Assembly (NCBI RefSeq): GCF_024171925.1 | Contig: NZ_JAMTCO010000003.1 | Span: forward strand, 124,001 to 188,000 | DNA from: Actinokineospora diospyrosa | GTDB lineage: Bacteria > Actinomycetota > Actinomycetes > Mycobacteriales > Pseudonocardiaceae | Direction of reading: 5' to 3' | DNA: 64,000 nucleotides | In this document: in pieces, positions 26,633 through 60,753 of the stretch | Numbering within the stretch: position 1 is the stretch's first letter | Layout of the letters: the number at the start of each line of letters is the position of its first letter | Position numbers and translations under genes: made by a program | The notes under the pieces: model-generated | The model's input: only the letters and a program-made list of their open reading frames with translations | Databases searched by the model: none | What the model was told of the DNA's origin: nothing

Positions 26633-27065
26633 AGGCATCCGCTGGCCCGTTGGTGCCTCGGCCGCCCATCCGCGCGAAGCGCGACATTGTCGTTGAGCTG
26701 ACCTCCAACAACACCAACCCACTAACTCTGCTCGATGCGGTGGATTTGTTTTGCGCGGGGGGACAACACCCGTAGCCTCGTTCGGCGGCTGCTGGGCCGT
26801 CCCTTGGCCCCCAGCTTTGAGCCCAGCACGGGTGTTGTAGGGGCCCCGCGCAAAACAAATCCACCGCATCGAGCACCCCCACCCGAAACCACGTCAAGCG
26901 GGCCTCTCAAGCCCCACCCACCCAGCCGCACCTAACTTGTGGAGCCCACCCAACCGGCACCTGAAACAGTCCCCGCTCAACCGCACTTCAAGCAGGCCCC
27001 GCACACCTCACCCCAACCGCACGTCAAGTCAGCCCCCAGGCAAGACCCGCGTCGACCACACTCCC
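26633..27065. other. Convergent intergenic region with hairpin element A and degenerate short repeats
   Basis: 433 bp without a gene I can support, between the DA1-like peptidase gene (+) and the polyprenyl synthase gene (-). It holds hairpin element A. To the right are several degenerate copies of a motif like AACCGCACxTCAAG followed by GGCCCC or AGCCCC (about 26890-27030). Short open frames here follow the hairpin arms and are not credible genes. Confidence 0.7.
26729..26875. repeat. 147-bp hairpin element, copy A
   Basis: A 32-bp perfect terminal inverted repeat: left arm 26729-26760 beginning TGCTCGATGCGGTGGATTTG, right arm 26844-26875 its exact complement. Inside are a second pairing (CAACACCCGT with ACGGGTGTTG) and a GC-rich inner loop with GCTGGG/CCCAGC pairing. 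The element is exactly as long as copies B (32550-32696) and C (60607-60753). It differs from B at arm positions 10, 17 and 18, always with the compensating change in the other arm. It lies in a convergent gap, so it could act as a two-way terminator; a non-autonomous mobile element is the alternative. Confidence 0.85.
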
Positions 27066-28130
27066 TCAGTGATCACGCAAGATGATCAAGTCCGCGATGG
27101 CCCGCAGCTCCGCCTCCGCGCGTTCCCCCGGCAACGCCGCCGCCAGGTGGTCCACCGCGTCCCCCAACAGCTCACCCGCGCGCGTCCTGGCCCAAGCCCG
27201 GCCCCCCGCCGACTCGACCAGGTCTGCGGCGCGCACCAGCTCCGCGGCCGTCAGCGCCTCGGTCCCCGCGTACAGCTCCCGCAACTCCCGCGCCGCCGGG
27301 GTGTCCGTGGTCAGCGCGGCCACCACCGGCAGCGACTTCTTGCGGTTCTCCAGGTCCGAGTACACCGGCTTCCCGGTGGCCGTCGGGTTTCCCCAGATCC
27401 CCAGCAGGTCGTCCACCAACTGGAACGCCACCCCCAGCCGCTCCCCGAACGACCGGAACTGGTCCACCTGACTCGGCGCCGCGCCCCCCAAGAGCGCACC
27501 GAGCGTCGTGGAGCAGGCCAGCAGTGCCCCGGTCTTGCCCTCGGCCATCCGCAGGCACTCCGCCAGCGTCACGTCCGCGCGCTGCTCGAAAGCCAGGTCC
27601 GCGGCCTGCCCCTCCTGCACCGCGAGGACACCGGCGGACAGCACGCGGGCGGCGGGCTGTGCGCGCGGGTGGTCGCTCGCGGCCAGCACGTCGAAGGCGA
27701 GGGTCAGCAGGGCGTCGCCTGCGAGGATCGCGGGGCCCAGACCGAAGACCGTCCACGCGGTCGGGCGGTGGCGGCGGGTGCGGTCACCGTCCATCACGTC
27801 GTCGTGCAGGAGGGTGAAGTTGTGCACCAGTTCGACGGCGACGGCCGCGGGCAGGGCCTCGGTGGGTGACCCGCCAACGGCCTCGGCGGCGGTCAGGACC
27901 AGGGCGGGGCGGATCGCCTTGCCCGCGTCGGCCTCGGTCGGCCTGCCGAGCTCGTCCCACCAGCCGAAGTGGTAGCCGGAGATGTGCCGCATCGCCTCGG
28001 GCAGCGAGTCCACCGCGGCGCGCAGGGCCGGGGCCAGCACGGCGCGGCTGTGCGACAGGACCTCCCTGGCCGACCGGTGACCGGCGGGGCGGCGGGTGCC
28101 TGGGACGTGGACGGTGGGGTTGGTGGACAC
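27066..28130 (-). CDS. Polyprenyl (geranylgeranyl-type) diphosphate synthase, likely encapsulin cargo
   Basis: A 354-residue all-trans prenyl diphosphate synthase. First Asp-rich motif in LLHDDVMDGDRTRRHRPTAW, second in FQLVDDLLGIWG, followed by TGKPVYSDLENRKKSLPV, typical of actinobacterial GGPP synthases. The N-terminus (MSTNPTVHVPGTRRPAGHR) is polar and probably disordered, as expected for a loading segment. The gene lies 96 bp downstream of two family 2B encapsulin genes, and polyprenyl synthases are known cargo types of that family. The start is GTG 28130. Chain length of the product cannot be read reliably. Confidence 0.9.
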   Translation of the reverse strand: MSTNPTVHVPGTRRPAGHRSAREVLSHSRAVLAPALRAAVDSLPEAMRHISGYHFGWWDELGRPTEADAGKAIRPALVLTAAEAVGGSPTEALPAAVAVELVHNFTLLHDDVMDGDRTRRHRPTAWTVFGLGPAILAGDALLTLAFDVLAASDHPRAQPAARVLSAGVLAVQEGQAADLAFEQRADVTLAECLRMAEGKTGALLACSTTLGALLGGAAPSQVDQFRSFGERLGVAFQLVDDLLGIWGNPTATGKPVYSDLENRKKSLPVVAALTTDTPAARELRELYAGTEALTAAELVRAADLVESAGGRAWARTRAGELLGDAVDHLAAALPGERAEAELRAIADLIILRDH

Positions 28131-28187
28131 GGGCCGGTCCTCGATTCAACGGGAGGGGACGGGCGGTCGTGCCCGCGGGGGAGCAAG

Positions 28188-28218
28188 CGGTGGCCCGCGC
28201 GCGGAGCACGGGCCACCG
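28188..28218 (-). terminator. Hairpin between encapsulin and prenyl synthase genes
   Basis: CGGTGGCCCG (28188-28197) and CGGGCCACCG (28209-28218) form a perfect 10-bp stem with an 11-nt loop, just after the encapsulin stop. No U-tract. Probably partial termination, which would set the shell-to-cargo ratio. Confidence 0.5.
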
Positions 28219-28226
28219 GGTTCATC

Positions 28227-29621
28227 TCACAGTCCGATTTGGACGTTCTCCAGCACGCCGAGCGCGTCCGGGACCAGCACCGCGGCGCTGTAGTAGGTGC
28301 TGACCAGGTACGACATGATCGCCTTGTCGTTGATCCCGGTGAACCGCACCGACAGGCCCGGCTCGTACTCGTCCGGGATCCCGGTCTGGTGCAGGCCGAT
28401 CACGCCCTGGTCGGACTCGCCGGTGCGCAGCACGATGATCGAGGTGATCCCGGTGTCGCTCACCGGGATCTTGTCGCACGGCAGCAGCGGCACCCCGCGC
28501 CAGGACTGCACCTGCTTGCCGTGCACCTCGGTCGTCGGCGGGTACAGGCCGCGCTTGGTGCACTCGCGGCCGAACGCGGCGATCGCCCTGGGGTGGGCCA
28601 GGAAGAAGTTCGACCTGCGCCGCCGCGCCAGCAGCTCGTCGAGGTCGTCCGGGGTCGGCGCGCCCTCGCGGGTGTGCAGCCGCTGGCGCAGGTCGGCGTT
28701 GTGCAGGAAGCCGAAGTCCCGGTTGTTGATGAGCTCGTGCTCCTGGCGCTCGCGCAGCGCGTGGATGGTCAGCCGCAGCTGCTGCTCGACCTGGTCCATC
28801 GGCTGGTTGTAGAGGTCGGCCACCCGGGTGTGGATCTTGAGCATGGTCTGCGCGACGGACAGCTCGTACTCGCGCGGGCTGCCCTCGTAGTCGACGAAGG
28901 TGCCGGGCAGCTCGTGCTCGCCGGAGTGCCCGGAGGACATGGCGATCTCGGCCTCGCCGTGCTTGTTCGTCCGGTTGGGCGGGCTCGCCCGGAACTCGTC
29001 CACGTGCTGGCGCAACGCGGCCGAGCGCTCCTGCAGTGACAGGAACTCCGAGCGCGACAGCGACATCACGATGCACGCGGTGCTGGCCTTGGCGGTGAAG
29101 TCCCAGGTGGCGTCGGCGTCGATGAGCCCGCGGTCGCCGAAGAACTCGCCGTCGGCCAGGACCGCGAGCACGGCCTCGTCGCCGAAGTGGCCCTCGGTGT
29201 AGGTGGTGACCTTGCCGTGCGCGATCAGGTGCACCGCGTCGGCCGGGCGCCCGCGCTCGACGATCGTGTCGCCCGCGCTGAACTCGCGCTGGGTGAACCG
29301 GTTCGCCAGCTCGGTGAGCGCGCCGACGTCGGCGAGGCCGCGCAGCAGGGCCAGCTCGCGCAGCTCGGTCGGCACGATGTCGACGTCGGCGCCGGTGTTG
29401 GTGAAGGTGACCCGGCCGTCGCCCAGGGTGTAGCTGAGCCTGCGGTTGACCCGGTACACCGCGCCCTGGGCCTCGACCCACGGCAGCATCCGCAGCAGCC
29501 AGCGCGGGCTGATCTCCTGCATCTGCGGGACGGACTTGGTGGTGGTCGCGAGGTTGCGCGCCGCCTTGGTGCTCAGGCTCTGCTGGTCCTGCTCGGAAGC
29601 GGTGTCGAGTAGCTCGGTCAC
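28227..29621 (-). CDS. Family 2B encapsulin nanocompartment shell protein, copy 1
   Basis: A 464-residue HK97-fold shell protein. It opens with the typical [20 protein letters not shown], continues [24 protein letters not shown], and carries an inserted cyclic-nucleotide-binding-like domain (about residues 75-200: [26 protein letters not shown]). The E-loop and A-domain follow ([40 protein letters not shown]) and the C-terminus is [12 protein letters not shown]. It is a paralogue of the upstream gene, with long near-identical DNA at a 1500-bp offset (28741-28830 and 30241-30330). It probably forms a mixed or alternative shell around the prenyl synthase. Confidence 0.93.
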
Positions 29622-29686
29622 GCCGATGACCCCCGGTGGTGGGTGGAACTTTGTGGGTGAAGGAGTGGGTGAAGGAGTGGGTGGAC

Positions 29687-29716
29687 GTGGTGCCCCGCGC
29701 GGACGCGGGGCACCAC
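29687..29716 (-). terminator. Strong hairpin between the two encapsulin genes
   Basis: GTGGTGCCCCGCG (29687-29699) and CGCGGGGCACCAC (29704-29716) form a perfect 13-bp stem with a 4-nt loop, directly after the stop of the upstream encapsulin. To its left (29642-29682) are direct repeats of GTGGGTGAAGGA. It probably limits read-through between the shell genes. Confidence 0.65.
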
Positions 29717-29723
29717 GAGGGGG

Positions 29724-31151
29724 TTAGAGACCGATCTGGACGTCGTCGAGCACGGCCAGCGCGTCGGGCACCAGCACCGCGGCCGAGTAGTACGCGGTGA
29801 CCAGGTAGGACAGGATCGCCTTGTCGTTGATCCCCATGAACCGCACCGACAGGCCCGGCTCGTACTCGTCGGGCAGCCCGGTCTGGTGCAGGCCGATGAC
29901 GCCCTGGTTGTCCTCACCGGTGCGCAGCACGATGATCGAGGTGGTCCGGGTGTCGCTGATCGGGATCTTGCTGCACGGCAGCACCGGGACCCCGCGCCAG
30001 GACGGCACGTGGTGCCCGCCGATCTCCACCGAGGCCGGGTAGATCCCGCGCTTGCTGCACTCGCGGCCGAACGCGGCGATCGCCTTGGGGTGGGCGAGGA
30101 TGACCGAGGGGTCCTTCCACACCTTCGCCAGCAGCTCGTCGAGGTCGTCGGGGGTGGGCGCGCCGGTGCGCGCGTGCACCCGCTGGCGCGGGTCGGCGTT
30201 GTGCAGCAGGCCGAACTCGCGGTTGTTGATGAGCTCGTGCTCCTGGCGCTCGCGCAGCGCCTCGATGGTCAGCCGCAGCTGCTGCTCGACCTGGTCCATC
30301 GGCTGGTTGTAGAGGTCGGCCACCCGGGTGTGCACCTTGAGCACGGTCTGCGCGACCGAGAGCTCGTACTCGCGCGGCGAGACCTCGTAGTCCACAAAGG
30401 TCTCCGGCAGCTCGACCTCGCCGGTGTGGCCCGCGGCGAGGTTGATCGGGACCTCGCCGTCCTGCTCGTGCGCGCCGCTGGCCAGGTACGCCTCGACGTG
30501 CGCGCGCAGCGTCGGCACCCGCTCGAGGAGGTCCTGGAACTCGTTGCGGCGCAGGGAGAGCACGGTGACCGCGGTGGCGGCCTTGGCGGTGAAGTCCCAG
30601 ATCTTCTCCTGCAGCAGGCCCCACTGGTCGAAGTACTCGCCGTCGGTGACCACGCCGACCACGGTCTCGTCGCCGTACTGGCCCTCGGCGCGCTGCTCGA
30701 CCCGGCCGTGCGCGATGACCAGGAACCGGTCGGCCGCGTGCCCCCACTCGACGAGCGTGTCGCCCGCGGCGTAGTCCTCCTGCCGGAACAGCCCGGCCAG
30801 CGCGGTCAGCGCCTCCTCGTCGTCGAAGTCGCGCAGGAAGGACAGTTCGCGCAGGTCCCCGGAGACCACCCGGGGCTGGGCGTCGGCCCGGTTGACGGTG
30901 ATCCGCCCGTCCCCGACGACGTAGTCGATCGCGATCCGCCCGTCGCCGACGACGTAGCTGCGGCGCTGGTTGACCCGGTAGGTGCCGCCCCCGACGTGGG
31001 TCCACGGCAGGACCCGCAGCAGCCAGCGGGAGGTGATCTCCTGCATCTGCGGGACGGACTTGGTGGTGGTCGCGAGGTTGCGCGCCGCCTCGGTGGTGAG
31101 GCTCTGCTGCGGGGGCGCTTCGCCGCCGACAGGGCGCAGGGTCTCGGTCAC
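29724..31151 (-). CDS. Family 2B encapsulin nanocompartment shell protein, copy 2
   Basis: A 475-residue paralogue of copy 1 with the same order: [20 protein letters not shown], shell N-arm, inserted cNMP-binding-like domain ([20 protein letters not shown]), then [18 protein letters not shown] and the C-terminus [12 protein letters not shown]. It carries an 11-residue internal duplication at the domain entry ([11 protein letters not shown] then [14 protein letters not shown] 30901-30924 and 30934-30957), absent from copy 1. It is the first gene of the encapsulin group, with a 362-bp promoter region upstream. Start GTG 31151. Confidence 0.93.
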
Positions 31152-31513
31152 GGTGCTACCGCCAATCGCTCATCCTGGAAAGGGAAGGTCGCGTGGGACA
31201 ATGCGGGCGACACCGAAAAACCGCGATGGCGGAAAGCACCTCACTTTCATGTTCGCACTGGTGAGGGCCCCGGTGTCCGCCTCGAACGTCGCTTCGCCAT
31301 TGTCGACGGCGTTGAAGCTAGCACCGCGAATTCGTGACAGTACAGTCCCCGAATCGGCTGGTTATAACCCAAGAGAACCGACCGGATTCAGCGATAAGGC
31401 AGACCGCGAGTAGTCATGTCGGGGCTCGATCACTCGATCTTGCGCCCGATTGGGCCGGACGTGACGCAGGGATACCTCGGATGGACGTAGCGTGAGCGCG
31501 GCACACTGGTGGG
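31152..31513. promoter_or_regulatory. Divergent upstream region, encapsulin group / dprE2-like gene
   Basis: 362 bp between divergent start codons. It is AT-richer than the rest of the window, especially 31195-31400 (for example gttataacccaagag), as expected of promoter DNA. I see no open frame worth calling and no clear operator palindrome. Confidence 0.45.
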
Positions 31514-32251
31514 ATGAGCGGTGTGGTGGTCGTCCTCGGCGGGCGCAGCGAGATCGGACTAGAGGTGGCGCGCCTGCTCGCGCCCGGCCGAACCCTGGTC
31601 CTGGCCGCCAGGAGGTCCGGTGATCTTGATCACCAACGCGCCGCCCTGACCGCCGTGGGCGCCACCGCCGTCCACCCCCTCGAGTTCGACGCGGACGACC
31701 TCACCACCCACCAGTCGTTCGTTCAGGGCATCGTCGACACCCACGGTCCGATCGACACGGTCATCGTGTCCTTCGGCATCCTCGGCGACCAATCCCGCGC
31801 CGAGACCGACGCGGCCCACGCCCTCTCCATAATCCACACCGACTACGTCGCCCACGTATCCGTCTTGACACACCTGGCGACCCTGCTCCGAGCCCAGAAC
31901 TCCGGCACCCTCATCGTCTTCTCCTCCGTGGCGGGAGTCCGAGTCCGCCGAGCCAACTACGTATACGGCTCAGCCAAAGCAGGCCTGGACGGCTTCGCCA
32001 GCGGCCTGTCCGACGCCCTAGCAGGCTCCGGCGCCCGCCTACTCCTGGTCCGCCCCGGCTTCGTAATCGGCCGCATGACCGACGGCATGCCCCCCGCCCC
32101 GTTCTCCTCAACCCCACCCCAAGTCGCCGCCGCCACAGTCCGGGCGCTGCGCAAGGGACGAGGAGAGGTCTGGGTCCCCGCAATCCTGCGCCCCGTCTTC
32201 TTCTGCATGCGCCTTCTCCCTCGCCGGCTATGGCGCAAGCTCCCCCGCTAA
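31514..32251 (+). CDS. SDR oxidoreductase, DprE2-like (decaprenylphosphoryl-2-keto-erythro-pentose reductase)
   Basis: A 245-residue short-chain dehydrogenase. Cofactor site VVVLGGRSEIGLEVA, FSSVAGVRVRRANYVYGSAK with Ser, Tyr and Lys in catalytic spacing, and VRPGFVIGRMTDGM. The variant glycine motif (GGRSEIG) and the C-terminal hydrophobic/basic end (VFFCMRLLPRRLWRKLPR) resemble DprE2, which completes epimerisation of decaprenylphosphoryl ribose to arabinose for arabinan synthesis. No dprE1 lies next to it in this window, so the specific name is moderately supported; the SDR fold is certain. Confidence 0.8.
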   Translation: MSGVVVVLGGRSEIGLEVARLLAPGRTLVLAARRSGDLDHQRAALTAVGATAVHPLEFDADDLTTHQSFVQGIVDTHGPIDTVIVSFGILGDQSRAETDAAHALSIIHTDYVAHVSVLTHLATLLRAQNSGTLIVFSSVAGVRVRRANYVYGSAKAGLDGFASGLSDALAGSGARLLLVRPGFVIGRMTDGMPPAPFSSTPPQVAAATVRALRKGRGEVWVPAILRPVFFCMRLLPRRLWRKLPR

Positions 32252-32389
32252 GGGGAGTGAGAAGCAGAGCAGAAGACAGACGGGCGACTTGATGCGTATC
32301 GAGTTGATATGTATGCAGTCGAGTCTGCGGGCATATGTGTTTCGATAACGCGCGATCTCGCGTAGCTGCCCTATTTCACCTGGTCAACC

Positions 32390-32549
32390 CTGGACAGTCG
32401 GACCCGGCGGTGCCAGCCCAGCTGCCGTCAGGACCGGCCCCAGCCCACCTACCCAGCCCCTGGACACTCGGAACGGCCGGTGCCATCCCAGCCCGCTCTC
32501 GTCAGCCCACCTTCCCAGCGCCTGGACAGTCGGACTCGCTGGTGCCAAC
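32390..32549. repeat. Three 62-70 bp tandem units left of hairpin B
   Basis: Units starting CTGGACAxTCGG at 32390, 32460 and 32522, each followed by a conserved GGTGCCA segment and CCAGCCCACC-like sequence. The last unit ends 28 bp before hairpin B. The same unit, in eight copies and the same position, precedes hairpin C. The surrounding 32252-32840 region (589 bp, convergent genes) holds no other gene I can support. Confidence 0.75.
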
Positions 32550-32696
32550 TGCTCGATGGGGTGGACCTGTTTTGTGTGGGGGGGACGGCACCCGTAGCGT
32601 TTCCGCGCGGCAGGGCCTGCTTTTGGGCCCCTGCTTTGCGGTTCTGCCACGGGTGTCGTAGGGGCCCCGCGCAAAACAGGTCCACCCCATCGAGCA
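32550..32696. repeat. 147-bp hairpin element, copy B
   Basis: Arms 32550-32581 (TGCTCGATGGGGTGGACCTG...) and 32665-32696 pair over 32 bp. The only deviations are two T opposite G positions (GTGT against GCGC), which are wobble pairs in RNA. An inner stem CGGCACCCGT with ACGGGTGTCG also holds a G-U. The element lies in the convergent gap between the dprE2-like and AMP-ligase genes. The length equals copies A and C exactly. Confidence 0.85.
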
Positions 32697-32826
32697 AAGC
32701 TCGAAAATCGCGGATCGGGCCCGATGTTGCCGCCAGGCAACGAGGCGTCCGATCCGGTGGCCGAGGTCGCCGCTAGGCGACGAGGCCGACCGTTCTGGGT
32801 CGCGACGCCGCAGGCGAGCCGACCCC
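32697..32826. repeat. Right flank shared by hairpins B and C
   Basis: The first 64 bp after hairpin B (AAAGCTCGAAAATCGCGGAT... to GAGGCGTCCGATCC) recur almost unchanged after hairpin C (from 60754). It contains a small palindrome TTGCC-GCCA-GGCAA. Copy B then has a diverged repeat of the same module (GTCGCCGCTAGGCGACGAGG), absent at C, before both end in AGGCGAGCCGACCC. Confidence 0.75.
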
Positions 32827-32840
32827 AGCCCCCGCCTACA

Positions 32841-34430
32841 TCAAGTCCACCGACCACTGCCAAACGTATCCTGCCCCGCCCTCAACACCGCCCTCAACTC
32901 CATCCGCCGGACCTTCCCCGTCCCCGTCCGCGGAATCTGCTCCCACGCCAACACCACCGGCTCCGCCAACGCAGGCAGATCACGCAGCGCACTACGCCAC
33001 AACACCGGGTCCAGGACCCCGTCCCGCGTCACCACCACCGGCTGCGGCAACTTCCCCGGCGTCCCCAGCACCACGCACTCCACCACGTTGGGTACCCGTT
33101 CCTCGAGCACGTCCTCCAGCTCCACACAACTGGCCCCGGGAAGGACATCCACCTCCCGGTCCAGCATCAAGTACGCCCCCCACCGGGTGCGCATCCCGAC
33201 GTCCCCGGTGTTCCACCACTCGCCATCGGTCTTCGCCGACCACCGCGAGTGCTCACCCACGTAATCAACGCACTGGGTCGCGGAATCAACCAGTACCAGC
33301 CCGGGAGTTCCCCGCGGCACCGGCAAGAACGTGTTCGGGTCGACCACGCGCAGGCGCGTCCGTCCCGGTGCCGGGCGGCCGAGGTTGCGGGTGGTGGGGT
33401 GGCGGGCGTCGCGGCGGGACAGGGAGCGGCGGGTGAGGAAGCGGAAGGTGAGCGGGCCGGTCTCGCTCTGGCCCCAGACCTGCACCCACAGCGGGCGCCT
33501 GCGGGTGCCGTGCAGGAACGCGCGGACCGTCGGCGGGTGGACCGCGTCGAAGGTGCTGACGAACACCCGGACGTCGCGCAGCGGGTGGTCGGGGCGTTCG
33601 AGCAGGGGGCGCCAGCGGACGAACGTGGACGGCAGCGCCTCCAGGGTCGTCGGCGGGTGGGCGCGCAGCAGGGGCTCGGCTTCGTCGGCGGTGTCGACGA
33701 TCAGGATTTCGCGCGGGGCCAGCCACAGGGCGCTGACCGTCCACGGCACCGCGCGCCCGTGGCTGAACGCGATCGCCGAGCAGACCGTGTCCCGCTTGCG
33801 GGCCGACACGATCGGCAGCCGGGTGCACTCGCCGCCCGCCAGGCCCAGCACCAGCGTGCGGTTGGTGTGCACCACCAGCTTCGGCACGCCCGTGGTGCCC
33901 GAGGTGTGCACGATCAGCAGCGGCTCGTCGTCGTCGCGGGTGACCGGGGCGGGCGGCTCGTGCCCGGTGAGCCGCTCCAGGTTGATGGTGTCCGGGTAGC
34001 GGCCCTCCAGGGTGACCGTGCGCGCCGCCCGCGAGATCAGCGTGATGCCGTGCGCGCGGGCCGTGTCCAGCACCGCGCGGGTGGTGATCAGCAGGGCCGG
34101 GTCGAGCCGCTCGAGCAGGACCTCCAGCGCGTGCGGTGCCAGCTGGTCCGACAGCAGCGCTGGCACGGCCCCGATCCGGACCGCGGCGCAGGCCAGCAGC
34201 ACGTAGTCCCAGTGGTTGCGCTTGACGATCGCCACCCGCTCGCCGGGGCGCACCCCGGCGGTGTGCAGCCACCCGGCCGCGTTGCGCACCAGGGCGGCCA
34301 GCGCCGCGACGTCGTAGCTGGTGCCGAAGTCGGGCGCGATGTCCAGCGGCCGGGCGAGCCGGACCACGGTGCGGGTCCGGCGGGTCACCAGCTCGTCGAA
34401 CAGGGTGCCCAGGTCACGCGGCTTGCTCAT
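32841..34430 (-). CDS. Acyl-CoA-synthetase-like AMP-forming ligase
   Basis: A 529-residue class I adenylate-forming enzyme. AMP-binding P-loop VHTSGTTGVPKLV (about residues 175-187), VWGQSETGP (A5-like), WWNTGDVG (A7), and terminal IPRTGTGKVRRMELR with the A10 catalytic Lys. It would activate a carboxylic acid as acyl-AMP and pass it to CoA or an amine; the substrate is unknown. It is last in the six-gene leftward operon and overlaps the methyltransferase by 17 bp. No carrier-protein gene is visible nearby, so direct amide or CoA-ester formation is likelier than carrier loading. Confidence 0.87.
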   Translation of the reverse strand: MSKPRDLGTLFDELVTRRTRTVVRLARPLDIAPDFGTSYDVAALAALVRNAAGWLHTAGVRPGERVAIVKRNHWDYVLLACAAVRIGAVPALLSDQLAPHALEVLLERLDPALLITTRAVLDTARAHGITLISRAARTVTLEGRYPDTINLERLTGHEPPAPVTRDDDEPLLIVHTSGTTGVPKLVVHTNRTLVLGLAGGECTRLPIVSARKRDTVCSAIAFSHGRAVPWTVSALWLAPREILIVDTADEAEPLLRAHPPTTLEALPSTFVRWRPLLERPDHPLRDVRVFVSTFDAVHPPTVRAFLHGTRRRPLWVQVWGQSETGPLTFRFLTRRSLSRRDARHPTTRNLGRPAPGRTRLRVVDPNTFLPVPRGTPGLVLVDSATQCVDYVGEHSRWSAKTDGEWWNTGDVGMRTRWGAYLMLDREVDVLPGASCVELEDVLEERVPNVVECVVLGTPGKLPQPVVVTRDGVLDPVLWRSALRDLPALAEPVVLAWEQIPRTGTGKVRRMELRAVLRAGQDTFGSGRWT

Positions 34431-48399: not shown

Positions 48400-48433
48400 G
48401 GGATCGGTGTTCCTTCCTCCGGGGGCCGGTCGC

Positions 48434-50473: not shown

Positions 50474-50492
50474 TGGCGTAGCACGCACCCCG

Positions 50493-52958: not shown

Positions 52959-53061
52959 ACGTGCACAGTAATGGGTCGGTCATCACGCGTGGTCAGGAAC
53001 CAATCGGGGTACTTGACCCGTTGAGACGGGTAAGGCACCTGGAGATGGGAAGGAGCCCGAG

Positions 53062-53265: not shown

Positions 53266-53271
53266 GCCAAG

Positions 53272-53300
53272 GCTGGGCCGCCCGCCACGGGCGGCCCAGC
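53272..53300. terminator. Bidirectional terminator hairpin
   Basis: GCTGGGCCGCCCG (53272-53284) and CGGGCGGCCCAGC (53288-53300): a perfect 13-bp stem with a 3-nt loop between the convergent antitoxin-like and ABC-F genes. Confidence 0.75.
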
Positions 53301-53304
53301 GCGC

Positions 53305-54936
53305 TCAGTCCTCGGTCACCTTGCCCGCCTCGACGCGCAGCCGCCGGGTCGTGGCCACCGCGTCGAGCATGCGGCGGTCGTGGGTGACCAGCAGCAGGGT
53401 GCCCGGGTACTCGGCGATCGCCGACTCCAACTGCTCGATCGCGGGCAGGTCGAGGTGGTTCGTCGGCTCATCGAGCACGAGCAGGTTGACCCCGCGGGCC
53501 TGGAGCAGGGCCAGGGCCGCGCGGGTCCGCTCGCCGGGCGAGAGCGTCACCGCGGGCCGCATGACGTGCGCGGCGCGCAGGCCGAACTTGGCCAGCAGGG
53601 TGCGCACCTCGGCGGTCGGCAGGTCCGGGACCTGGCGGCCGAAGGCGTCGAACAGCTCCTCCTCGCCCAGGAACAGGCCGCGCGCCTGGTCGACCTCGCC
53701 GACGACCACGCCGGGACCCAGGTACGCGGTGCCCGAGGTCAGCTCGGCGCGACCGAGCAGGGCCGCCAGCAGGGTCGACTTGCCCGCCCCGTTCGCGCCG
53801 GTGATGGCGACCTTGTCGGCCCAGCCGATCTCCAGGCTGACCGGGCCGAGGACGAACTCGCCCCGGCTGAGCACGGCGTCGGTCAGCGCGGCGACGACCG
53901 CGCCACCGCGCGGGGCGGCGGCGATCTCCATCCGCAGCTCCCACTCCTTGCGCGGCTCCTCGACCACCTCCAGCCGCTCGATCATCCGCTCGGTCTGCCG
54001 CGCCTTGGCCGCCTGCTTCTCGGTCGACTCCGCGCGCAGCTTGCGGCCGATCTTGTCGTTGTCGGTCGACTTGCGCCGGGCGTTGCGCACGCCCTTCTCC
54101 ATCCAGTTGCGCTGCAACCGGGCCCTGGCCTCCAGCGACGCCTTGGTGTCGGCGAAGTCCTCGAACGCCTCGCGGGCGTGCCTGCGGGCGAGCTCGCGCT
54201 CCTCCAGGTAGGCGTCGTACCCGCCGCCGTACTCGTGGATCTGCTGCTGGTGCAGGTCGAGCTCCAGCACGCTGGTGACGGTCCTGGTGAGGAACTCGCG
54301 GTCGTGGCTGACCACGACCGCGCCGGTGCGCAGGCCGGACACGAACTCCTCCAACCTGGCCAACCCGTCGAGGTCCAGGTCGTTGGTCGGCTCGTCGAGC
54401 AGGAACACGTCGTAGCGGCTCAGCAGCAGCGAGGTGAGCCCGGCGCGCGCGGCCTGGCCACCGGAGAGCGACACCATCTCCTGGTCGAGCCGCACCCCGA
54501 GACCGATGTCGGCGGCCGCGATCACCGCGCGCTCGTCGAAGTCGGCACCGCCGAGGGCGAGCCAGCGCTCCAGGGCGACGGTGTACTCGTCGCCGTCGCC
54601 GCCCGTCGCCAACTCCTCCGCGGCGGCGTCCATGACCCGCTGCGCCTCGGCGACACCGGTGCGGCGGGCCAGGAACTGCACCACCGTCTCACCCGGACGC
54701 CGCTCCGGCTCCTGCGGCAGGTAGCCGACCGTCGCGGTCGGCGGGTTGAGCCGGACCTCGCCCTGCTCGGCGGGCAGCAGCCCGGCCAGCGTGCGCAGCA
54801 GGGTCGACTTGCCCGCGCCGTTGACGCCGACCAGCCCGATCACGTCACCGGGGGCGACGACCAGTTCCAGCTCGGCGAACAGCACCCGGTCACCGTGCCC
54901 GGCGGCCAGTCCTTTGGCGACGAGTGTGGCGCTCAT
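53305..54936 (-). CDS. ABC-F family ATPase (ribosome-associated)
   Basis: A 543-residue tandem ABC ATPase without membrane segments. First Walker A GVNGAGKSTLLRTLAG and signature SLSGGQAARAGLTSLL with DEPTNDLDL; second Walker A GANGAGKSTLLAALLG and LSPGERTRAALALL with DEPTNHLDL. A charged linker between the cassettes (about 240-320, RRHAREAFEDFADTKASLEA) would reach into the ribosome. Members give target protection from antibiotics or act in translation. Preceded by a coupled 28-codon ORF that may control it. Confidence 0.92.
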   Translation of the reverse strand: MSATLVAKGLAAGHGDRVLFAELELVVAPGDVIGLVGVNGAGKSTLLRTLAGLLPAEQGEVRLNPPTATVGYLPQEPERRPGETVVQFLARRTGVAEAQRVMDAAAEELATGGDGDEYTVALERWLALGGADFDERAVIAAADIGLGVRLDQEMVSLSGGQAARAGLTSLLLSRYDVFLLDEPTNDLDLDGLARLEEFVSGLRTGAVVVSHDREFLTRTVTSVLELDLHQQQIHEYGGGYDAYLEERELARRHAREAFEDFADTKASLEARARLQRNWMEKGVRNARRKSTDNDKIGRKLRAESTEKQAAKARQTERMIERLEVVEEPRKEWELRMEIAAAPRGGAVVAALTDAVLSRGEFVLGPVSLEIGWADKVAITGANGAGKSTLLAALLGRAELTSGTAYLGPGVVVGEVDQARGLFLGEEELFDAFGRQVPDLPTAEVRTLLAKFGLRAAHVMRPAVTLSPGERTRAALALLQARGVNLLVLDEPTNHLDLPAIEQLESAIAEYPGTLLLVTHDRRMLDAVATTRRLRVEAGKVTED

Positions 54937-55019
54937 GCGGGTTCCGCCCAGGGGTCGGCCGCGAACCGGGTGCCTGCTCCGCGGGTGGTTGGCAGGTGGT
55001 GTTCGGCGGGCGCGCTCAT
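54933..55019 (-). CDS. 28-residue mini-ORF coupled to the ABC-F gene (leader-peptide candidate)
   Basis: ATG at 55019 overlaps the stop of the esterase gene (ATGA) and its TGA at 54933-54935 overlaps the ABC-F start (ATGA). The peptide runs MSAPAEHHLPTTRGAGTRFA then ADPWAEPA. The double coupling makes chance less likely. ABC-F resistance genes are often controlled by leader peptides whose stalled translation unmasks the gene; that use here is inference. Confidence 0.5.
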   Translation of the reverse strand: MSAPAEHHLPTTRGAGTRFAADPWAEPA

Positions 55020-55906
55020 GACAGCTCCGCCCGCAGGTTCGCCGCGACCTGGGCGACCGCTTGGCGCGCGGCGTCGAACCGGGCCAGGCGGCGGAAGAAG
55101 CCGTGGATCATGCCCTGGTAGCAGACGCTGACGGCCGGGACGCCCGCCTCGGCCAGCGCCAGCGCGTAGGACTCGCCGGACCCGCGCAGGATGTCGTACT
55201 CGGCGGTGACCACCAGCGTCGGCGGCATGCCGGTGAGGTCGGCGGCCGTGGGCGCGAGGTCGGGCTGGTCGCGGTCCACCCCGGCGGGGGCGTAGGCGTC
55301 CCAGCAGAAGGCCAGGCCCTGCTCGAGCAGCCCCGGGCTGTCCACATCGGACAGCTCGGCGGTGTGGTCGGTGATCGGGCAGATCAGCACCTGCGCGGCG
55401 AAGGGCTGCCCCCGGTCGCGCCAGCGGCGCGCGGCGACGGTCGCCAGGTGCGCGCCCGCGGAGTCGCCCGCGATCGCGATCCGGGTCGTGTCGAGCCCGA
55501 GCGCCTCGCCCTCGCGGCGGATCCACGCGATGGCGGTGTCGACGTCGTCGCTCGCGGCCGGGAAGGGGTGCTCGGGCGCCAGGCGGTAGTCGACGGCGAC
55601 CACGGCGGCGCCGGAGAGCGCGGCCAGGTAGCGGCACAGCGGGTCGTGGGTGTCCAGGTCGCCCATGGCCCAGCCGCCGCCGTGCAGGTAGAACACGACC
55701 GGCGCGCCGGGGGCGGGCCGGTAGATCCGCACCGGCACCCCGTAGGCGTCCACATCGGACACCTCGCCCAGCGGCGTGCCGGGGCCCGCCTCGGCGAGCG
55801 TGGTCGCCACGAGCGCGGCCCGCGCCGCGGGCAGGGTTTCCGCGGTCAGCGGTGGCGGGACGCCACCGGCCTTGGCGACGGCGCGCACCTGGGGGTGCAG
55901 CGGCAC
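55016..55906 (-). CDS. Alpha/beta-hydrolase (HSL-type esterase)
   Basis: A 296-residue esterase of the hormone-sensitive-lipase group. Oxyanion motif FYLHGGGWAMGDL, nucleophile Ser in AIAGDSAGAHLA, Asp in VVTAEYDILRGSG and His in GMIHGFFRRL. No signal peptide. GTG 55906 is six bases after GGAGG. The first gene of a coupled chain with the mini-ORF and ABC-F gene, so it might modify a drug that ABC-F protects against (speculative). Confidence 0.9.
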   Translation of the reverse strand: MPLHPQVRAVAKAGGVPPPLTAETLPAARAALVATTLAEAGPGTPLGEVSDVDAYGVPVRIYRPAPGAPVVFYLHGGGWAMGDLDTHDPLCRYLAALSGAAVVAVDYRLAPEHPFPAASDDVDTAIAWIRREGEALGLDTTRIAIAGDSAGAHLATVAARRWRDRGQPFAAQVLICPITDHTAELSDVDSPGLLEQGLAFCWDAYAPAGVDRDQPDLAPTAADLTGMPPTLVVTAEYDILRGSGESYALALAEAGVPAVSVCYQGMIHGFFRRLARFDAARQAVAQVAANLRAELS

Positions 55907-55931
55907 GGCACACCTCCGAACTCCGACACGG

Positions 55932-56213
55932 TCACCACCCCGGCGGCGGCACCGCGTCAATGATGTCCGACAGCGCCACCCAATCGGGGACTGGCCTGTG
56001 CTCGGGCCCGAGCGGGCGGACCGGCAGCCGGTACTGGTTGAGGTGCGGGTGCGGCTCGGGGTGGCCGTCGACGATGCCGATGCCGATGAACCTGGCCCGG
56101 CCGCGCTGCAGGTCGAACATGCCGAAGGTGATCACCCAGCCCGGCGGTGGCCAGTCCATCGCGGCCTCCCCGAGGTCCCCCGAAATCGTCACAACCCCCG
56201 CATCGTCCTTCAC
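55932..56213 (-). CDS. Small protein of unknown function
   Basis: A 93-residue protein (MKDDAGVVTISGDLGEAAMD ... PVPDWVALSDIIDAVPPPGW), no signal peptide or membrane segment, Pro/Trp-rich ends. Codon use is less extreme than in neighbours but the sequence is protein-like. It lies 25 bp upstream of the esterase gene and co-directional with it. Family not recognised. Confidence 0.6.
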   Translation of the reverse strand: MKDDAGVVTISGDLGEAAMDWPPPGWVITFGMFDLQRGRARFIGIGIVDGHPEPHPHLNQYRLPVRPLGPEHRPVPDWVALSDIIDAVPPPGW

Positions 56214-56479
56214 TCGTTTGATGTAACCAGATGAGACGTTCGGGCTTGTCGATTTCGCTCACGGTTGGTAACCGATTTGCCGCTCAATGGGTGAAGAGTT
56301 CACTGAACCGACTTTCGTAGGGTGCACGACCTGCGGTTGAGCGAACTAGCGTCGCTCCATCGCCCCGGCGGGCTCGTCCCGATCGGCGGTCACTGATCCG
56401 GGTGAGGTCGGGGCGGTCGACCCGGGACCTGTCAACCCTGACCCCGGCAACCCTGCGAGCAAGGAAGAGGACCATCCCC

Positions 56480-57613
56480 ATGCGCAGCAGCACCACCAGC
56501 AGCAGAAAACGGGCCCTCGTCGCGCTGGGCGCCATCGGACTGGCCGCGGGCGCGGCCGTGGCGCTCACCCCGGCGGCCACCGCGGCACCGGCCGCCCTCG
56601 TCCCGGCGTTGCAGCGCGACCTCGGCCTCAGCGCCGAGCAGGTGCACCAGCGGGTCGCGGCGGAGAACGACGCGCGGGCGTTACTGCCCACCGCCCGCGA
56701 CGCGGCGGGTGCCGCGTTCGGCGGCTCGTGGCTCGACGGGGGCGCGCTCGTGGTCGGCGTGGCCGACCCGGGCAAAGCGGACGCGGTCCGCGCCACCGGG
56801 GCGCGCCCGGCCGTCGTGGCGCGCACCGCGGCGGACCTGGACGCCACCAAGACCGCCATCGACCGGCAGGCCGCTGGCGGCGCGCCCACCGCGGTCACCG
56901 GGTGGTACGTCGACGCGCCGTCCAACTCGGTGGTGCTCACCGTCACCCGCGGCGCGACCGGCGCCGACGTCACGTCCTTCGTGGACCGGGCCAAGAGCGC
57001 GGGGGCGGTCCGAGTCGCCGAGACCACCGAGGCGCCCCAGCTGTTCGCCGGGTCGATCGTGGGCGGGAACGCCTACTACATCAACGGTTCCAGCCGCTGC
57101 TCGGTCGGGTTCTCGGTCGAGGGCGGGTTCGTCACCGCGGGCCACTGCGGCACCACCGGCTCCAGCGCGACCGGCGCCGACCAGAGCGCGCTCGGCACGT
57201 TCCGCGGTTCGTCCTTCCCCGGCAACGACTACGCCTGGGTCGCGTCGAACTCGTCGTGGACGCCCTCGCCCACGGTGAACGGCTACGGCAACGGGAACGT
57301 GACCGTCGGCGGTTCGTCCGAGGCGGGCGTGGGCCAGAGCGTGTGCCGCTCCGGGTCGACCACCGGCTGGCACTGCGGCACCATCCAGGCCACCAACGCC
57401 TCGGTGAACTACCCGCAGGGCACCGTGTCCGGGCTGACCAAGACCAACGCCTGCGCCGAGCCGGGTGACTCGGGCGGCTCGTGGGTCAGCGGCGACCAGG
57501 CCCAGGGCGTGACCTCCGGCGGGTCGGGCAACTGCTCCTCCGGTGGCACCACGTACTTCCAGCCGGTCAACGAGATCCTCTCCGTGTACGGGCTCACGCT
57601 CGCCACGGGCTGA
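56480..57613 (+). CDS. Secreted S1-family serine protease, streptogrisin/alpha-lytic type
   Basis: A 377-residue preproprotease. Basic N-terminus and hydrophobic stretch (KRALVALGAIGLAAGAAVAL) ending ATAAPA form the signal peptide. A pro-region of about 155 residues (LQRDLGLSAEQVHQRVAAEN, DAVRATGARPAVVARTAADL) acts as a folding chaperone in this family. The mature enzyme begins near SIVGGNAYYI, with His in TAGHCG, Asp in GNDYAWV and Ser in EPGDSGGSW, and three likely disulfides. Strong hairpin terminator follows. Confidence 0.93.
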   Translation: MRSSTTSSRKRALVALGAIGLAAGAAVALTPAATAAPAALVPALQRDLGLSAEQVHQRVAAENDARALLPTARDAAGAAFGGSWLDGGALVVGVADPGKADAVRATGARPAVVARTAADLDATKTAIDRQAAGGAPTAVTGWYVDAPSNSVVLTVTRGATGADVTSFVDRAKSAGAVRVAETTEAPQLFAGSIVGGNAYYINGSSRCSVGFSVEGGFVTAGHCGTTGSSATGADQSALGTFRGSSFPGNDYAWVASNSSWTPSPTVNGYGNGNVTVGGSSEAGVGQSVCRSGSTTGWHCGTIQATNASVNYPQGTVSGLTKTNACAEPGDSGGSWVSGDQAQGVTSGGSGNCSSGGTTYFQPVNEILSVYGLTLATG

Positions 57614-57631
57614 CCGCGGGGTGGTGGAACA

Positions 57632-57665
57632 GAGGCCCTACCCGGGGTGCGCCGGGTAGGGCCTC
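57632..57665. terminator. Bidirectional terminator hairpin
   Basis: GAGGCCCTACCCGG (57632-57645) and CCGGGTAGGGCCTC (57652-57665): perfect 14-bp stem, 6-nt loop, between the protease gene and the convergent cysteine-desulfurase-like gene. Confidence 0.8.
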
Positions 57666-57679
57666 GCCCTGTCCCGCCG

Positions 57680-58897
57680 CTACGCGGTGAGGTCGACCAC
57701 GGCGGTGAGCAATCGGTCCACATCGGACTCGTTGGTGTACGGCGCGATCCCCGCGCGGACCGCTCCCGCGTCACCGAGTCCCAGGTGCCTGGCGCACTCG
57801 ATGGCGTAGAAGTGGCTGGCGGGCGCGTTGACCCCGGCGAGTCCTAGGCGCTCGTAGACGTCTTTAGGTTCAATTCCGTCCACTGTGAACAGGACGGTGG
57901 ACGTCCTCGCGCGCTCGGGATCTCCGTAGACGGTGACGCCGGGGAGTCCGCGCAGGCCGGTTTCGAGTCGTCGCAAGAGGACGGTCTCGTGCTCGTGCAG
58001 CGCGGTCAGCGAGTTCGTCAAGCGTTCGCGGCGGGTTCCCTCACCGGGGACCAAGTTCGCCAGGAACTCGACCGCCGCGGTGCTGCCCGCCAGGGACTCG
58101 TACGGCAGGGTCCCGAGCTCGAACCGCTCGGGCACCGCGTCGGAGGACGGCAGCAGCTTGTCCGGCCGCAGGGTCTCCAGCAGCTCCGGGTCCGCGACGA
58201 CCGTGCCCAGGTGCGGGCCGAGGAACTTGTACTGGGAGCAGGCGTAGAAGTCCGCGCCGAACGCCTTGACGTCGACCAGCGCGTGCGCGGTGTGGTGCAC
58301 GCCGTCGACGTAGGCGAGCGCGCCGACCGCGTGCGCCGCCGCCGTGATGGCGGGGATGTCGGGCTGGGTGCCGAGCAGGTTGGACGCGGCGGTCACGGCG
58401 ACCAGCCTGGTCTGCGGGGTGAGCAGGTCGGTGATGGCCGAGGTGGCCAGCACCCCGGTCGCCGGGTCGAAGTCGGCCCAGCGCACCGTCGCGCCCACCG
58501 CGGCCGCGGCCTGCACCCAGGGCCGGATGTTCGCGTCGTGGTCGAGCCGGGTCACCACGACCTCGTCGCCGGGGCCCCAGCCCTTGGCCAGCGCCCGGGA
58601 CAGGTCGTAGGTGAGCTGGGTCATGCTGCGGCCGAACACCACCCCGCGCGGATCGGCGCCGAGCAGGTCGGCCATGGCCCGTCTGGCCTCGGTCACGACC
58701 AGGTCGGCCCGCCGCTCCGCCGCCGTCACCCGCCCCCGGTTGGCCACCGCGGCGAGCATCACCGCGGTCACCGCCTCGGCGACCTCCACCGGCACCTGCG
58801 AGCCACCCGGCCCGTCGAAGTGCGCGGCACCCTCGGCGAGCGCGGGGAACCTGGCCCGCACCGCCGCCACGTCGTATGTCATCCCAGGAGTGAGCAC
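57680..58897 (-). CDS. Cysteine-desulfurase-like PLP enzyme
   Basis: A 405-residue class V aminotransferase-fold protein. RGVVFGRSMTQLTYDLSRAL, TRLDHDANIRPWVQAA with the PLP-stacking His, AYVDGVHHTAHALVDVKAFG with the Asp, and the Schiff-base Lys in ACSQYKFLGPHLG. It matches the cysteine-desulfurase-like group that lacks the usual catalytic Cys loop; true desulfurase activity is doubtful. Start GTG 58897; ATG 58882 is an alternative. Monocistronic. Confidence 0.88.
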   Translation of the reverse strand: MLTPGMTYDVAAVRARFPALAEGAAHFDGPGGSQVPVEVAEAVTAVMLAAVANRGRVTAAERRADLVVTEARRAMADLLGADPRGVVFGRSMTQLTYDLSRALAKGWGPGDEVVVTRLDHDANIRPWVQAAAAVGATVRWADFDPATGVLATSAITDLLTPQTRLVAVTAASNLLGTQPDIPAITAAAHAVGALAYVDGVHHTAHALVDVKAFGADFYACSQYKFLGPHLGTVVADPELLETLRPDKLLPSSDAVPERFELGTLPYESLAGSTAAVEFLANLVPGEGTRRERLTNSLTALHEHETVLLRRLETGLRGLPGVTVYGDPERARTSTVLFTVDGIEPKDVYERLGLAGVNAPASHFYAIECARHLGLGDAGAVRAGIAPYTNESDVDRLLTAVVDLTA

Positions 58898-59006
58898 ACC
58901 CCGAGCCTAGGTGGTCCGACGTCCCGGTACGCGGGAGTCTTTGACGCGGATTGTCACGGGTGCCACCTTGTGCGTGTCAGCAGATTGAGGACAAGGGAGC
59001 ACGCCC

Positions 59007-59567
59007 GTGACCACCGCCATCCGGATCCCCGGCTACCTCGCCGGGACCTGGGACATCGACCCCATCCACTCGGACGTGTCCTTCGTGGTGCGCCACCTGG
59101 GCCTGACCCGCTACCGGCGCAGCTTCGAGCGCTTCTCCGGCGTCATCGTCACCGCCGAGGACCCGTACAACTCGACCGTCACCGCCGAGATCGACACGTC
59201 CTCCTTCGACACCGGCCTGGACGTCTTCACCAAACACCTCCTCGGCGCCGACTTCTTCAACGTCGAGGTCCACCCCACCGCCACCCTGACCTCGACCGGC
59301 CTGCGCCCCAACGGCGACAACTACCTGCTCGACGCCGAGCTGACCCTGCTCGGCACCACCCGCTCCCTCACCCTCGACGTCGAGGCCCTCGGCTTCGGCG
59401 TGGGCATCGACGGTGGGCAGAAGACCGCGTTCTCGGCCTCCACCACCCTCAGCCGCGCCGACTTCGGCCTCACCTACCAGTCGACCCTCACCAACGGCAA
59501 CCTCGTCATCAGCGACGACGTGCGGGTACTGGTCGAGATCGAAGCTGTACTGCGCAAGGACGCCTGA
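59007..59567 (+). CDS. YceI-family lipid-binding protein
   Basis: A 186-residue lipocalin-like beta-barrel. Typical segments: GTWDIDPIHSDVSFVVRHLG, FSGVIVTAEDPYNSTVTAEI, FNVEVHPTATLTSTGL and TLLGTTRSLTLDVEALGFG. Family members bind isoprenoid chains. No signal peptide, unlike E. coli YceI, so it is cytoplasmic. GTG start. 21 bp before the DUF1707 gene, likely co-transcribed. Confidence 0.92.
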   Translation: MTTAIRIPGYLAGTWDIDPIHSDVSFVVRHLGLTRYRRSFERFSGVIVTAEDPYNSTVTAEIDTSSFDTGLDVFTKHLLGADFFNVEVHPTATLTSTGLRPNGDNYLLDAELTLLGTTRSLTLDVEALGFGVGIDGGQKTAFSASTTLSRADFGLTYQSTLTNGNLVISDDVRVLVEIEAVLRKDA

Positions 59568-59588
59568 CCCGGGCGTAAAGTGGGGCCC

Positions 59589-59993
59589 ATGGGGACGGGT
59601 CGCGAGGCCAACATCAGGGTGGGTACCGCCGAGCGCGAAGAGGCCATCTCCGCCCTCGCCGACCACCTGGCCAACGGCCGGATCGACGTGGCCGAGTACG
59701 AACAGCGCGTAACCCAGGCAACAGCGGCCCGAACCCGCGCCGACCTGACCACCCTGTTCGACGACCTCCCCACCCCCCACCCGTCGTTCGACCCACCGCA
59801 GGTCGAGACAAAGGTGGTAATCCCCCAAGCCCCCCTCTGGGAACGACCAGCCCCCCGCCGCAACAACCGGGGGCTGGTCGCCTTCCTAGGCGTCGCCGCC
59901 CTAAGCACCGTGGCCGTCGTGGCAATCACCTCAACCTGGTGGGCCCTAGCCCCCCTCGCCATCCTGGCCATAATCCTGGTCTTCGCCTCTTAG
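59589..59993 (+). CDS. DUF1707 (SHOCT-like) membrane protein
   Basis: A 134-residue protein. N-terminal DUF1707 segment (REANIRVGTAEREEAISALA, NGRIDVAEYEQRVTQATAAR), Pro-rich linker, and a C-terminal membrane hairpin (LVAFLGVAALSTVAVVAITS, then ALAPLAILAIILVFAS). Common actinobacterial arrangement, function unknown. ATG 59589 chosen; GTG 59580 possible. The gene's 3' half has more A/T wobble codons than its neighbours. Confidence 0.85.
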   Translation: MGTGREANIRVGTAEREEAISALADHLANGRIDVAEYEQRVTQATAARTRADLTTLFDDLPTPHPSFDPPQVETKVVIPQAPLWERPAPRRNNRGLVAFLGVAALSTVAVVAITSTWWALAPLAILAIILVFAS

Positions 59994-60101
59994 CCCTCCT
60001 TCTTGCGGCGAATTGTTGATCTTGAGGCCGCCTCCGCACCCTCGCGCGCGAGCCCCTCTCCGCCCTCCCAGCCCCGCCAACCCGGCCCTGCCACTTGGCC
60101 C

Positions 60102-60606
60102 CTGGACTCTCGGGCGTCACTGGTGCCATCTCAGCCTCCGTCAGGCCTGCCCCAACCCACCTGCTCAGCGCCTGGACACTCGGACCCTGCGGTGCCGTCC
60201 CGCCTGCCGTCAGGTCCGCCCCAGCCCACCTGCTCAGCGCCTGGACACTCGGACCCTGCGGTGCCGTCCCGCCTGCCGTCAGGTCTGCCCCAGCCCACCT
60301 GCTCAGCGCCTGGACACTCGGACCCTGCGGTGCCGTCCCGCCTGCCGTCAGGTCTGCCCCAGCCCACCTGCTCAGCGCCTGGACACTCGGACCCTGCGGT
60401 GCCGTCCCGCCTGCCGTCAGGTCCGCCTCAACCCACCTGCTCAGCCCTGGACACTCGGAACGGCCGGTGTCATCCCAGCCCGCCCTCGTCAGCCCTGCCA
60501 ACCCAGCGCCTGGACAGTCGGACCTGTCGGTGCCATCCCAGCTGCCGTCAGGTCCGCCCCAGCCCACTTTCCCAGCGCCTGGACAGTCGGACTCGCTGGT
60601 GCCAAG
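60102..60606. repeat. Eight-unit tandem array (about 69 bp) left of hairpin C
   Basis: Units beginning CTGGACxxTCGG at 60102, 60172, 60241, 60310, 60379, 60447, 60510 and 60579 (periods 70, 69, 69, 69, 68, 63, 69). The central copies are nearly identical, so expansion is recent. The last unit begins 28 bp before hairpin C, exactly as at hairpin B. The units are contiguous, without unique spacers. Confidence 0.9.
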
Positions 60607-60753
60607 TGCTCGATGGGGTGGACCTGTTTTGTGTGGGGGGACGGCACCCGTAGCGTCGCCTCGCGGCAGGGCCAGTCTTTTCGGCCCCTGCTTTGCGGTC
60701 CTGCCACGGGTGTCGTAGGGGCCCCGCGCAAAACAGGTCCACCGCATCGAGCA
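60607..60753. repeat. 147-bp hairpin element, copy C
   Basis: Arms 60607-60638 and 60722-60753. The left arm is identical to that of B; the right arm carries C at the position matching A, giving one G-G mismatch at pair 10, so C looks intermediate between A and B. T opposite G wobbles as in B. Convergent gap; same length as A and B. Confidence 0.85.

Follow-up and report, generated by a model that had tools for sequence, protein, structure and literature searches.

A dispersed hairpin repeat of Actinokineospora with a fixed shape and largely free arm sequences, possibly spread as a folded single strand

Miniature inverted-repeat transposable elements (MITEs) are short non-coding repeats with terminal inverted repeats, and in the attC sites of integrons the folded shape is conserved while the sequence is variable, extrahelical bases are present, and one strand is the active one. 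Dispersed hairpin repeats are also known, and their spread is usually tied to the RAYT transposase and a fixed sequence tag. For repetitive extragenic palindromes (REPs) and the hairpin-forming REP doublets called REPINs, long hairpins of inverted arms, compensatory changes, G-T pairs, and intergenic and convergent placement are reported in two papers (PMC3116915, PMC3733652). The second also describes CGTC-tagged REPs, palindromic sequences that according to its authors apparently lack a dedicated transposase; REPs measure 20-40 bp and carry the tag at one end (PMC3733652). Here we describe a hairpin element of about 147 bp found in a 64,000-nucleotide stretch of Actinokineospora diospyrosa (contig NZ_JAMTCO010000003.1, positions 124,001 to 188,000; hereafter the window). 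What sets it apart is that some 200 copies exist in a genome in which none of three candidate enzyme families was found, and that a fixed shape goes with a largely free helix sequence. From sequence comparison, we consider it to be a non-autonomous, dispersed, REPIN-like mobile repeat that is propagated as one folded single strand, and we put the probability of this reading at roughly 0.55. Among the top full-text matches listed in a literature search, subscription journals and preprints being outside it, none dealt with these elements by title or abstract.

A first-pass annotation had proposed three 147-bp hairpins in the window, and all three (hereafter copies A, B, and C) are confirmed, with inverted arms of 32 nt each (Table 1). 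They fold much more stably than their dinucleotide shuffles on both strands (z -8.5 to -12.9; 0/200 shuffles equal). At arm positions 10, 17, and 18, the compensated changes said to distinguish A from B are borne out, the opposite arm matching in each case; the further claim that all other differences are G-U compatible fails at one arm position of copy C. The convergent placement of the three copies is upheld by open reading frames (ORFs), Pfam domain matches, and a codon-usage gene caller. Copy A lies between the genes for a DA1-like protein and a polyprenyl synthetase, B between those for a short-chain dehydrogenase and an AMP-binding enzyme, and C between a small plus-strand ORF (59580-59993) and the gene for a LuxR-type regulator. 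Gene contexts in the source genome (G000; 8.11 Mb in 29 contigs) depend on this purpose-built gene caller. The annotation had missed flanks of several hundred bp that are common to B and C and absent from A.

The view that the hairpin is a conserved structured element is strongly supported by covariation. Among 73 distinct copies from three genomes, which were found by sequence (each arm at most 5 substitutions from a pattern) without a structural model, 15 of the 47 consensus pairs show double-sided changes. In a set of 44 copies from 15 genomes, double-sided changes occur in 27 of 33 modelled pairs, pairing is kept in 97.2% of the cells, and covariation scores 0.537, compared with 0.179 in shuffles and no more than 0.103 when the structure is slid; the copies beyond the close group in this set were found with a structural model, which favors paired copies, and related copies are counted repeatedly. 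The range of pair types is not a product of this bias, since position 7 occurs as A-U, U-A, G-C, and C-G. The architecture is constant and comprises an outer helix ending in GGGG/CCCC, an inner helix, a terminal stem-loop, and an asymmetric loop whose 3' side is UAGGGG in 37 of the 44 copies; the hairpin ends mostly read TGC...GC(A/C/T). The internal GTAG of the G000 copies becomes TAAGC, TAAAC, or TACCC in other species. Between species, then, the shape is preserved but much of the helix sequence is free to change. A further closing helix beyond the hairpin was dropped because it scarcely exceeded shuffled partners (8/200 as low).

The source genome holds about 190 copies by arm pattern and about 190-210 overall, which the first-pass annotation had overlooked. 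A 25-base arm pattern with at most 3 mismatches gave 187 forward and 190 reverse matches, and its reversed control gave 0. In 1.596 Mb of G000, about a fifth of the genome, a covariance model found 41 copies that are intact, 3 matches that are decayed, and 2 copies cut by contig ends; the intact copies extrapolate to about 208 per genome. Several G000 contigs start inside a copy (C1:31, C2:9, C4:9, and C14:43), a pattern to be expected where repeats interrupt an assembly.

When the arm pattern was searched in 120 genomes of relatives including G000, matches were found in 10 of 16 Actinokineospora genomes, seven of which, besides G000, have more than 40 on each strand, and exact arms occur in Actinokineospora terrae and A. 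globicatena. Outside the genus, a single match occurs in each of 9 of 104 genomes (the two listed have 2 and 3 mismatches), which is chance level since the reversed pattern also matches in six genomes. The covariance-model search of related genomes that had been proposed as a check was carried out with a model built from the 73 copies (model R1; E 0.001; at most 150 candidates per genome scored), and relatives were found in 15 of the 16 genomes of the genus. G007, G015, and G011 have 21, 11, and one match, respectively, and G013 is the sole Actinokineospora genome without a match to this model at E 0.001. A second covariance model at E 1e-6 matched 21 of 233 non-genus Pseudonocardiaceae genomes (12 candidates scored per genome) and none of the 392 remaining genomes in a sample drawn across the class (8 candidates scored per genome). 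The folded relatives outside the genus have a similar architecture with different arms, and a looser likeness is seen in the genus g8 and in g23. Amplification is lineage- and species-specific, with copy-rich and copy-poor Actinokineospora species. No match was found among phages (query copy A), plasmids (query copy B with its flanks), or viruses (scan with the exact arm pattern).

Further copies not only covary but also do not sit randomly relative to genes; the element thereby withstood two of the three refuting conditions set out in the first-pass annotation. The 40 arm-pattern copies in the 1.596 Mb of G000, a count without the one additional intact copy that only the covariance model picked up, are distributed over 27 convergent, 11 codirectional, and 2 divergent gaps, and none overlaps a called gene. 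The background of 882 gaps consists of 159 convergent (18%), 530 codirectional, and 193 divergent ones (convergent excess, p 8e-12), and 132 of the 159 convergent gaps are without a copy. Other Actinokineospora loci are convergent in 32 of 43 cases, with 9 codirectional, 0 divergent, and 2 at a locus end, and the 15 loci from other genera comprise 7 convergent, 6 codirectional, 1 divergent, and 1 at an end; these cross-genome loci are best hits and no random sample, leaving out second loci of counted sites and the contig-end locus L065. Placement is tight in some species, as at L244 of G007 (-5 and 15 bp to the genes).

Copies also form clusters. The 150 best hits in G006 fall into 113 clusters, 28 of which have at least 2 copies; opposed neighbors are arranged minus then plus in 12/12 cases, same-orientation neighbors are mostly 237-278 bp apart with a few wider, and no replichore bias is evident by octants, the origin not being located. 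Opposed pairs read elsewhere are minus then plus in G002 (two pairs) and plus then minus in G010, G003, and G001 (five pairs). The gap past the 3' end of the AMP-binding gene (window 32252-32840; L100, L101, and L109) contains hairpins in G000, G002, G003, and G010 that differ in arm sequence among these four genomes; no hairpin was found in this gap in G006 or the other searched loci, G012 being outside the search.

The departures from Watson-Crick pairing are strand-specific. With 77 copies read in A's orientation, arm positions 2-32 contain 130 G.U, 6 A.C, and 25 other mismatches, 17 of the last at arm position 10. The corresponding counts are 60, 6, and 14 among 37 distinct arm pairs, and 55, 3, and 8 in the 44 copies across the genus. 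A.C states are each confined to one or two copies; G.U states became common. Relative to the genes, the G.U-tolerant strand has a random orientation, with 15 sense and 13 antisense cases in codirectional gaps (n = 28), and 23 aligned with the nearer gene and 24 with the farther one in convergent gaps; therefore, the constraint does not come from membership in the transcript of a neighboring gene. Minority pair states in 68 G000 copies were divided by recurrence. Those in single copies comprise 5 mismatches, 3 A.C, 1 G.U, and 1 Watson-Crick pair, and those in at least 2 copies comprise 9 Watson-Crick, 3 G.U, and 2 mismatches. Pairing is broken by 8/10 single-copy states versus 2/14 multi-copy states (Fisher p 0.003), although the numbers are small and the single-copy changes may include assembly errors. 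These observations point to selection among the copies that go on multiplying, which is what a mobile element would be expected to show.

Turnover of the sites is visible between species. The gene order of G000 is common to G006 and, less fully, to G005. Between matching flanks, the gap at C3:64457 measures 518 bp in G000 and 10 bp in G006, where it is empty, and that at C3:359480 measures 740 bp versus 39 bp, again empty. The gap of copy B is 592 bp in G000 and 34 bp, without a copy, in G006. Some sites, such as C3:194958, are filled in two or three species, each with its own copy type, and the immediate flanks of sites filled in several species do not match. One site has a decayed copy in G000 and an intact one in G006. 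Five internal gene-order breakpoints separate G000 from G005 over about 375 kb; two of them coincide with B's gap and C's gap, and a third is the 8.7-kb interval 18333-27065, which ends at A's gap. The repeats were considered as the cause of these rearrangements, and this was rejected because G006 has the G000 gene order yet a gap of 31 bp and no copy at B; B therefore arrived after that break.

Most copies in G000 belong to larger units. Shared flanks surround 34 of the 40 copies, B and C included, and the remaining 6, including A, are lone hairpins. The left side of a unit consists of a variable number of about 70-bp repeats, and the right side of about 100 bp plus about 127-bp repeats with TGTGGACAACC motifs. 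The exact 9-mer TTGTCCACA, which we take to be the actinobacterial DnaA-box consensus, occurs 137 times in the 1.596 Mb, 87 of them within 42 kb of element gaps, versus 1-11 occurrences for each of eight other 9-mers. At least one such box is present in the gaps of 32 of the 34 units (not B) and in 0/6 lone-hairpin gaps. Since element gaps hold only 1 of 8 boxes in G006 (400 kb) and 6 of 18 in G005, the association is not general. The boxes cluster in the right modules of the units and may amount to hundreds of dispersed putative DnaA sites in the species of G000.

We favor a mobile, REPIN-like repeat propagated as a folded single strand because of the copy number, the fixed architecture with a largely free helix, the one-strand G.U excess, the convergent bias, and the empty sites. 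Among the three options offered by the first-pass annotation, a MITE/REPIN-like mobile repeat is the best, given the empty sites, the species-specific amplification, and the few decayed copies, but the known REPIN mobilizer was not found and no target duplication was discernible. The propagating form would be a folded single strand of RNA or single-stranded DNA, and a trans-acting enzyme would recognize the shape together with a few constant unpaired bases, chiefly the UAGGGG side of the loop, and not the arm sequence. The arms could then drift provided that pairing persists. Copies inserted in genes, promoters, and operons would be lost, so that the survivors gather between converging gene ends. 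In G000, the hairpin may travel, or may have been amplified, with the flanking tandem and DnaA-box repeats as units of about 0.4-1.2 kb.

Several observations weigh against this reading. Positions 15, 26, and 28 account for 123 of the 130 G.U pairs, which are shared by descent, and when counted by position, 7 have G.U and 5 have A.C. The inserts are often 500-740 bp, exceeding the hairpin and leaving the mobile unit undefined, and no target duplication is discernible because the gap flanks diverge too fast. The few decayed copies could also reflect host selection. Y1_Tnp (PF01797), the RAYT domain, has 0 matches in 14 of the 16 Actinokineospora genomes, G000 and G006 among them; RVT_1 (PF00078) and the TnpB domain (PF07282 only) are likewise absent from G000 and G006 and present in 3/16 (G003, G007, and G012) and 5/16 genomes of the genus, respectively. 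The search covered these three families and no other transposase families. No mobility gene recurs beside the genus hairpins read. In all, 282 proteins encoded next to hairpins were clustered. Eight neighbor clusters have at least 3 members, comprising LuxR-type, polyketide synthase (PKS), ABC-type, the AMP-binding gene with two neighbors, glycosyltransferase-like, and DUF222-HNH proteins (labels partly by sight). The glycosyltransferase-like protein adjoins hairpins in four species, probably at one orthologous site. DUF222 genes, two of them with a recognized HNH domain, adjoin related hairpins in three genomes of g8 (L282, L287, and L288); as a possible clue to the mobilizer, they are a lead only.

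A structured RNA with a host function in 3' regions, acting as a terminator, an mRNA stabilizer, or a barrier to antisense read-through between converging genes, would also explain the bias to convergent gaps, the G.U excess, the stable folds, and the very small number of decayed copies, and the tight placement at L244 fits such a role. We regard it as unlikely, since the orientation of the constrained strand is unrelated to transcription, most changes private to one copy disrupt pairing, the order of opposed pairs differs by species, most convergent gaps have no copy, and sites are empty in relatives. The two-way terminator suggested by the first-pass annotation is not supported and is rejected as the main role on account of the random orientation and the missing T-run, and copies also lie in codirectional gaps. 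A run of at least 4 T within 20 nt on either side was found in 0/53 copies from G000, G006, and G005; three G010 copies, on the other hand, have TTTTT about 8-12 nt past the hairpin, which favors the host-RNA explanation. In terminator scans of the window, none of the three hairpins had a site at its end; the scans placed one chance-level site within B's 5' arm and three on the minus strand of C's right module, versus 1.5 expected. Rfam 15 gave no hit on the window hairpins at the gathering score, and among seven hairpin loci it gave three sub-threshold matches, one of which overlies a hairpin (L274; plant microRNA family MIR851, 28.7 bits versus a cut-off of 90).

That the element is a classical MITE, derived by deletion from a DNA transposon and recognized by the transposase of the latter through double-stranded terminal inverted repeats, seems quite improbable: its 30-32-bp terminal inverted repeats, many intergenic copies, and lineage-specific amplification are typical enough, but species differ from one another at the majority of arm positions and yet retain the inner helix and the unpaired loop, and a strand-specific G.U excess is unexpected under double-stranded recognition. 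Nor is any target duplication discernible, and the 1.596 Mb yielded no parent-like arrangement in which a 5' arm and, at most 8 kb further on, a 3' arm both stand unpaired. Spread by recombination and local duplication, through gene conversion and tandem growth in tolerant gaps, could produce the regular spacing of same-orientation neighbors in G006, the variable tandem modules around the hairpin, and the species-typical sequence at some orthologous sites. We doubt it strongly, as lone hairpins without shared flanks exist and gaps that are empty in relatives get filled, which requires a transfer step. A REP or REPIN in the strict sense, moved by a RAYT (Y1 tyrosine) transposase, is already largely refuted and has very little probability left. 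The long inverted-arm hairpin, compensatory changes, intergenic and convergent placement, and G-T pairs all agree with it; however, the only two genomes with a PF01797 match, G007 and G015, are both copy-poor, and GTAG is not conserved across the family.

Table 1 Features of the three hairpin copies and their flanking modules in the window.
Feature	Position	Strand	Remark
Copy A, lone hairpin without shared flanks	26729-26875	+	In convergent gap 26633-27065
Copy A 5' outer arm	26729-26760	+	32 nt, GGGG at end
Copy A 3' outer arm	26844-26875	+	CCCC at start, unpaired TAGGGG just before
Copy B hairpin	32550-32696	+	In convergent gap 32252-32840
Copy B left module	32380-32549	+	About 70-bp tandem repeats, common to most other units; left limit approximate
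Copy B right module	32697-32840	+	Begins AAGCTCGAAAATCGCGGATC; in other units too; truncated by the next gene; without DnaA box
Copy C hairpin	60607-60753	+	One unpaired G-G at arm position 10; in convergent gap 59994-61453
Copy C left module	60053-60606	+	69-bp tandem repeats; limits approximate
Copy C right module	60754-61250	+	Tandem repeats of about 127 bp; right limit approximate
Four exact DnaA boxes TTGTCCACA in copy C right module	60969, 60988, 61088, 61107 (60969-61115)	-	4 in window versus 0.12 expected from shuffles

Elsewhere in the window, two Rfam matches to Sernc350 (Saccharopolyspora sRNA 350) lie on the plus strand at 29089-29596 and 30583-31113, both antisense to two tandemly duplicated ORFs of about 1.4 kb on the minus strand. 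Imperfect 12-bp tandem repeats of the GACGGCGGTGCC type at 6180-6416 overlap long ORFs.

In its presumed mode of action the element comes closest to a REPIN, being a non-autonomous palindrome that would stay foldable through its own spread and be tolerated where genes end. Since RAYT and the tag were looked for and not found, we do not class the element as a REPIN. More tentatively, and with odds that we would place below even, it may represent a new class of single-strand-hairpin mobile repeat, namely a Pseudonocardiaceae element that is recognized by its fold and a few unpaired bases and not by its arm sequence, owes its movement to an enzyme belonging to none of the RAYT, RVT_1, and TnpB families, and has arms that can be rewritten almost completely between species. 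The element opens to testing the question of how bacterial palindromic repeats without a transposase are copied, and by what, and the genus offers a natural comparison in its copy-rich species, its copy-poor species, and G013 without a match.

Among known systems, attC sites as commonly described seem to resemble the element in a conserved fold, variable sequence, extrahelical bases, and one active strand. Unlike them, copies of the element are scattered as single hairpins or small groups, chiefly in convergent gaps, and form no cassette arrays. With MITEs it shares terminal inverted repeats, but its arms are largely free in sequence and show a one-strand G.U excess, and neither a target duplication nor a parent transposon has been demonstrated. 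The CGTC-tagged REPs are like the element in that, according to their authors, they apparently lack a dedicated transposase, whereas the element is about 147 bp long and has no such tag. Compared with REPINs, it has arms of 30-32 bp with little constant sequence family-wide, a conserved asymmetric loop UAGGGG, no RAYT found in G000, larger composite units with tandem and DnaA-box repeats, and no conserved GTAG or CGTC end tag. In other respects, it is close to the REPIN/REP and RAYT systems as presented in PMC3116915 and PMC3733652: its copies are non-autonomous, dispersed intergenic hairpins with compensatory changes, G-T pairs, and clusters of opposed copies. Like REPINs, they are found mostly in convergent or codirectional gaps (38/40 in G000), and each consists of an inverted doublet folding as a single hairpin, in which changes in one arm are compensated in the other.

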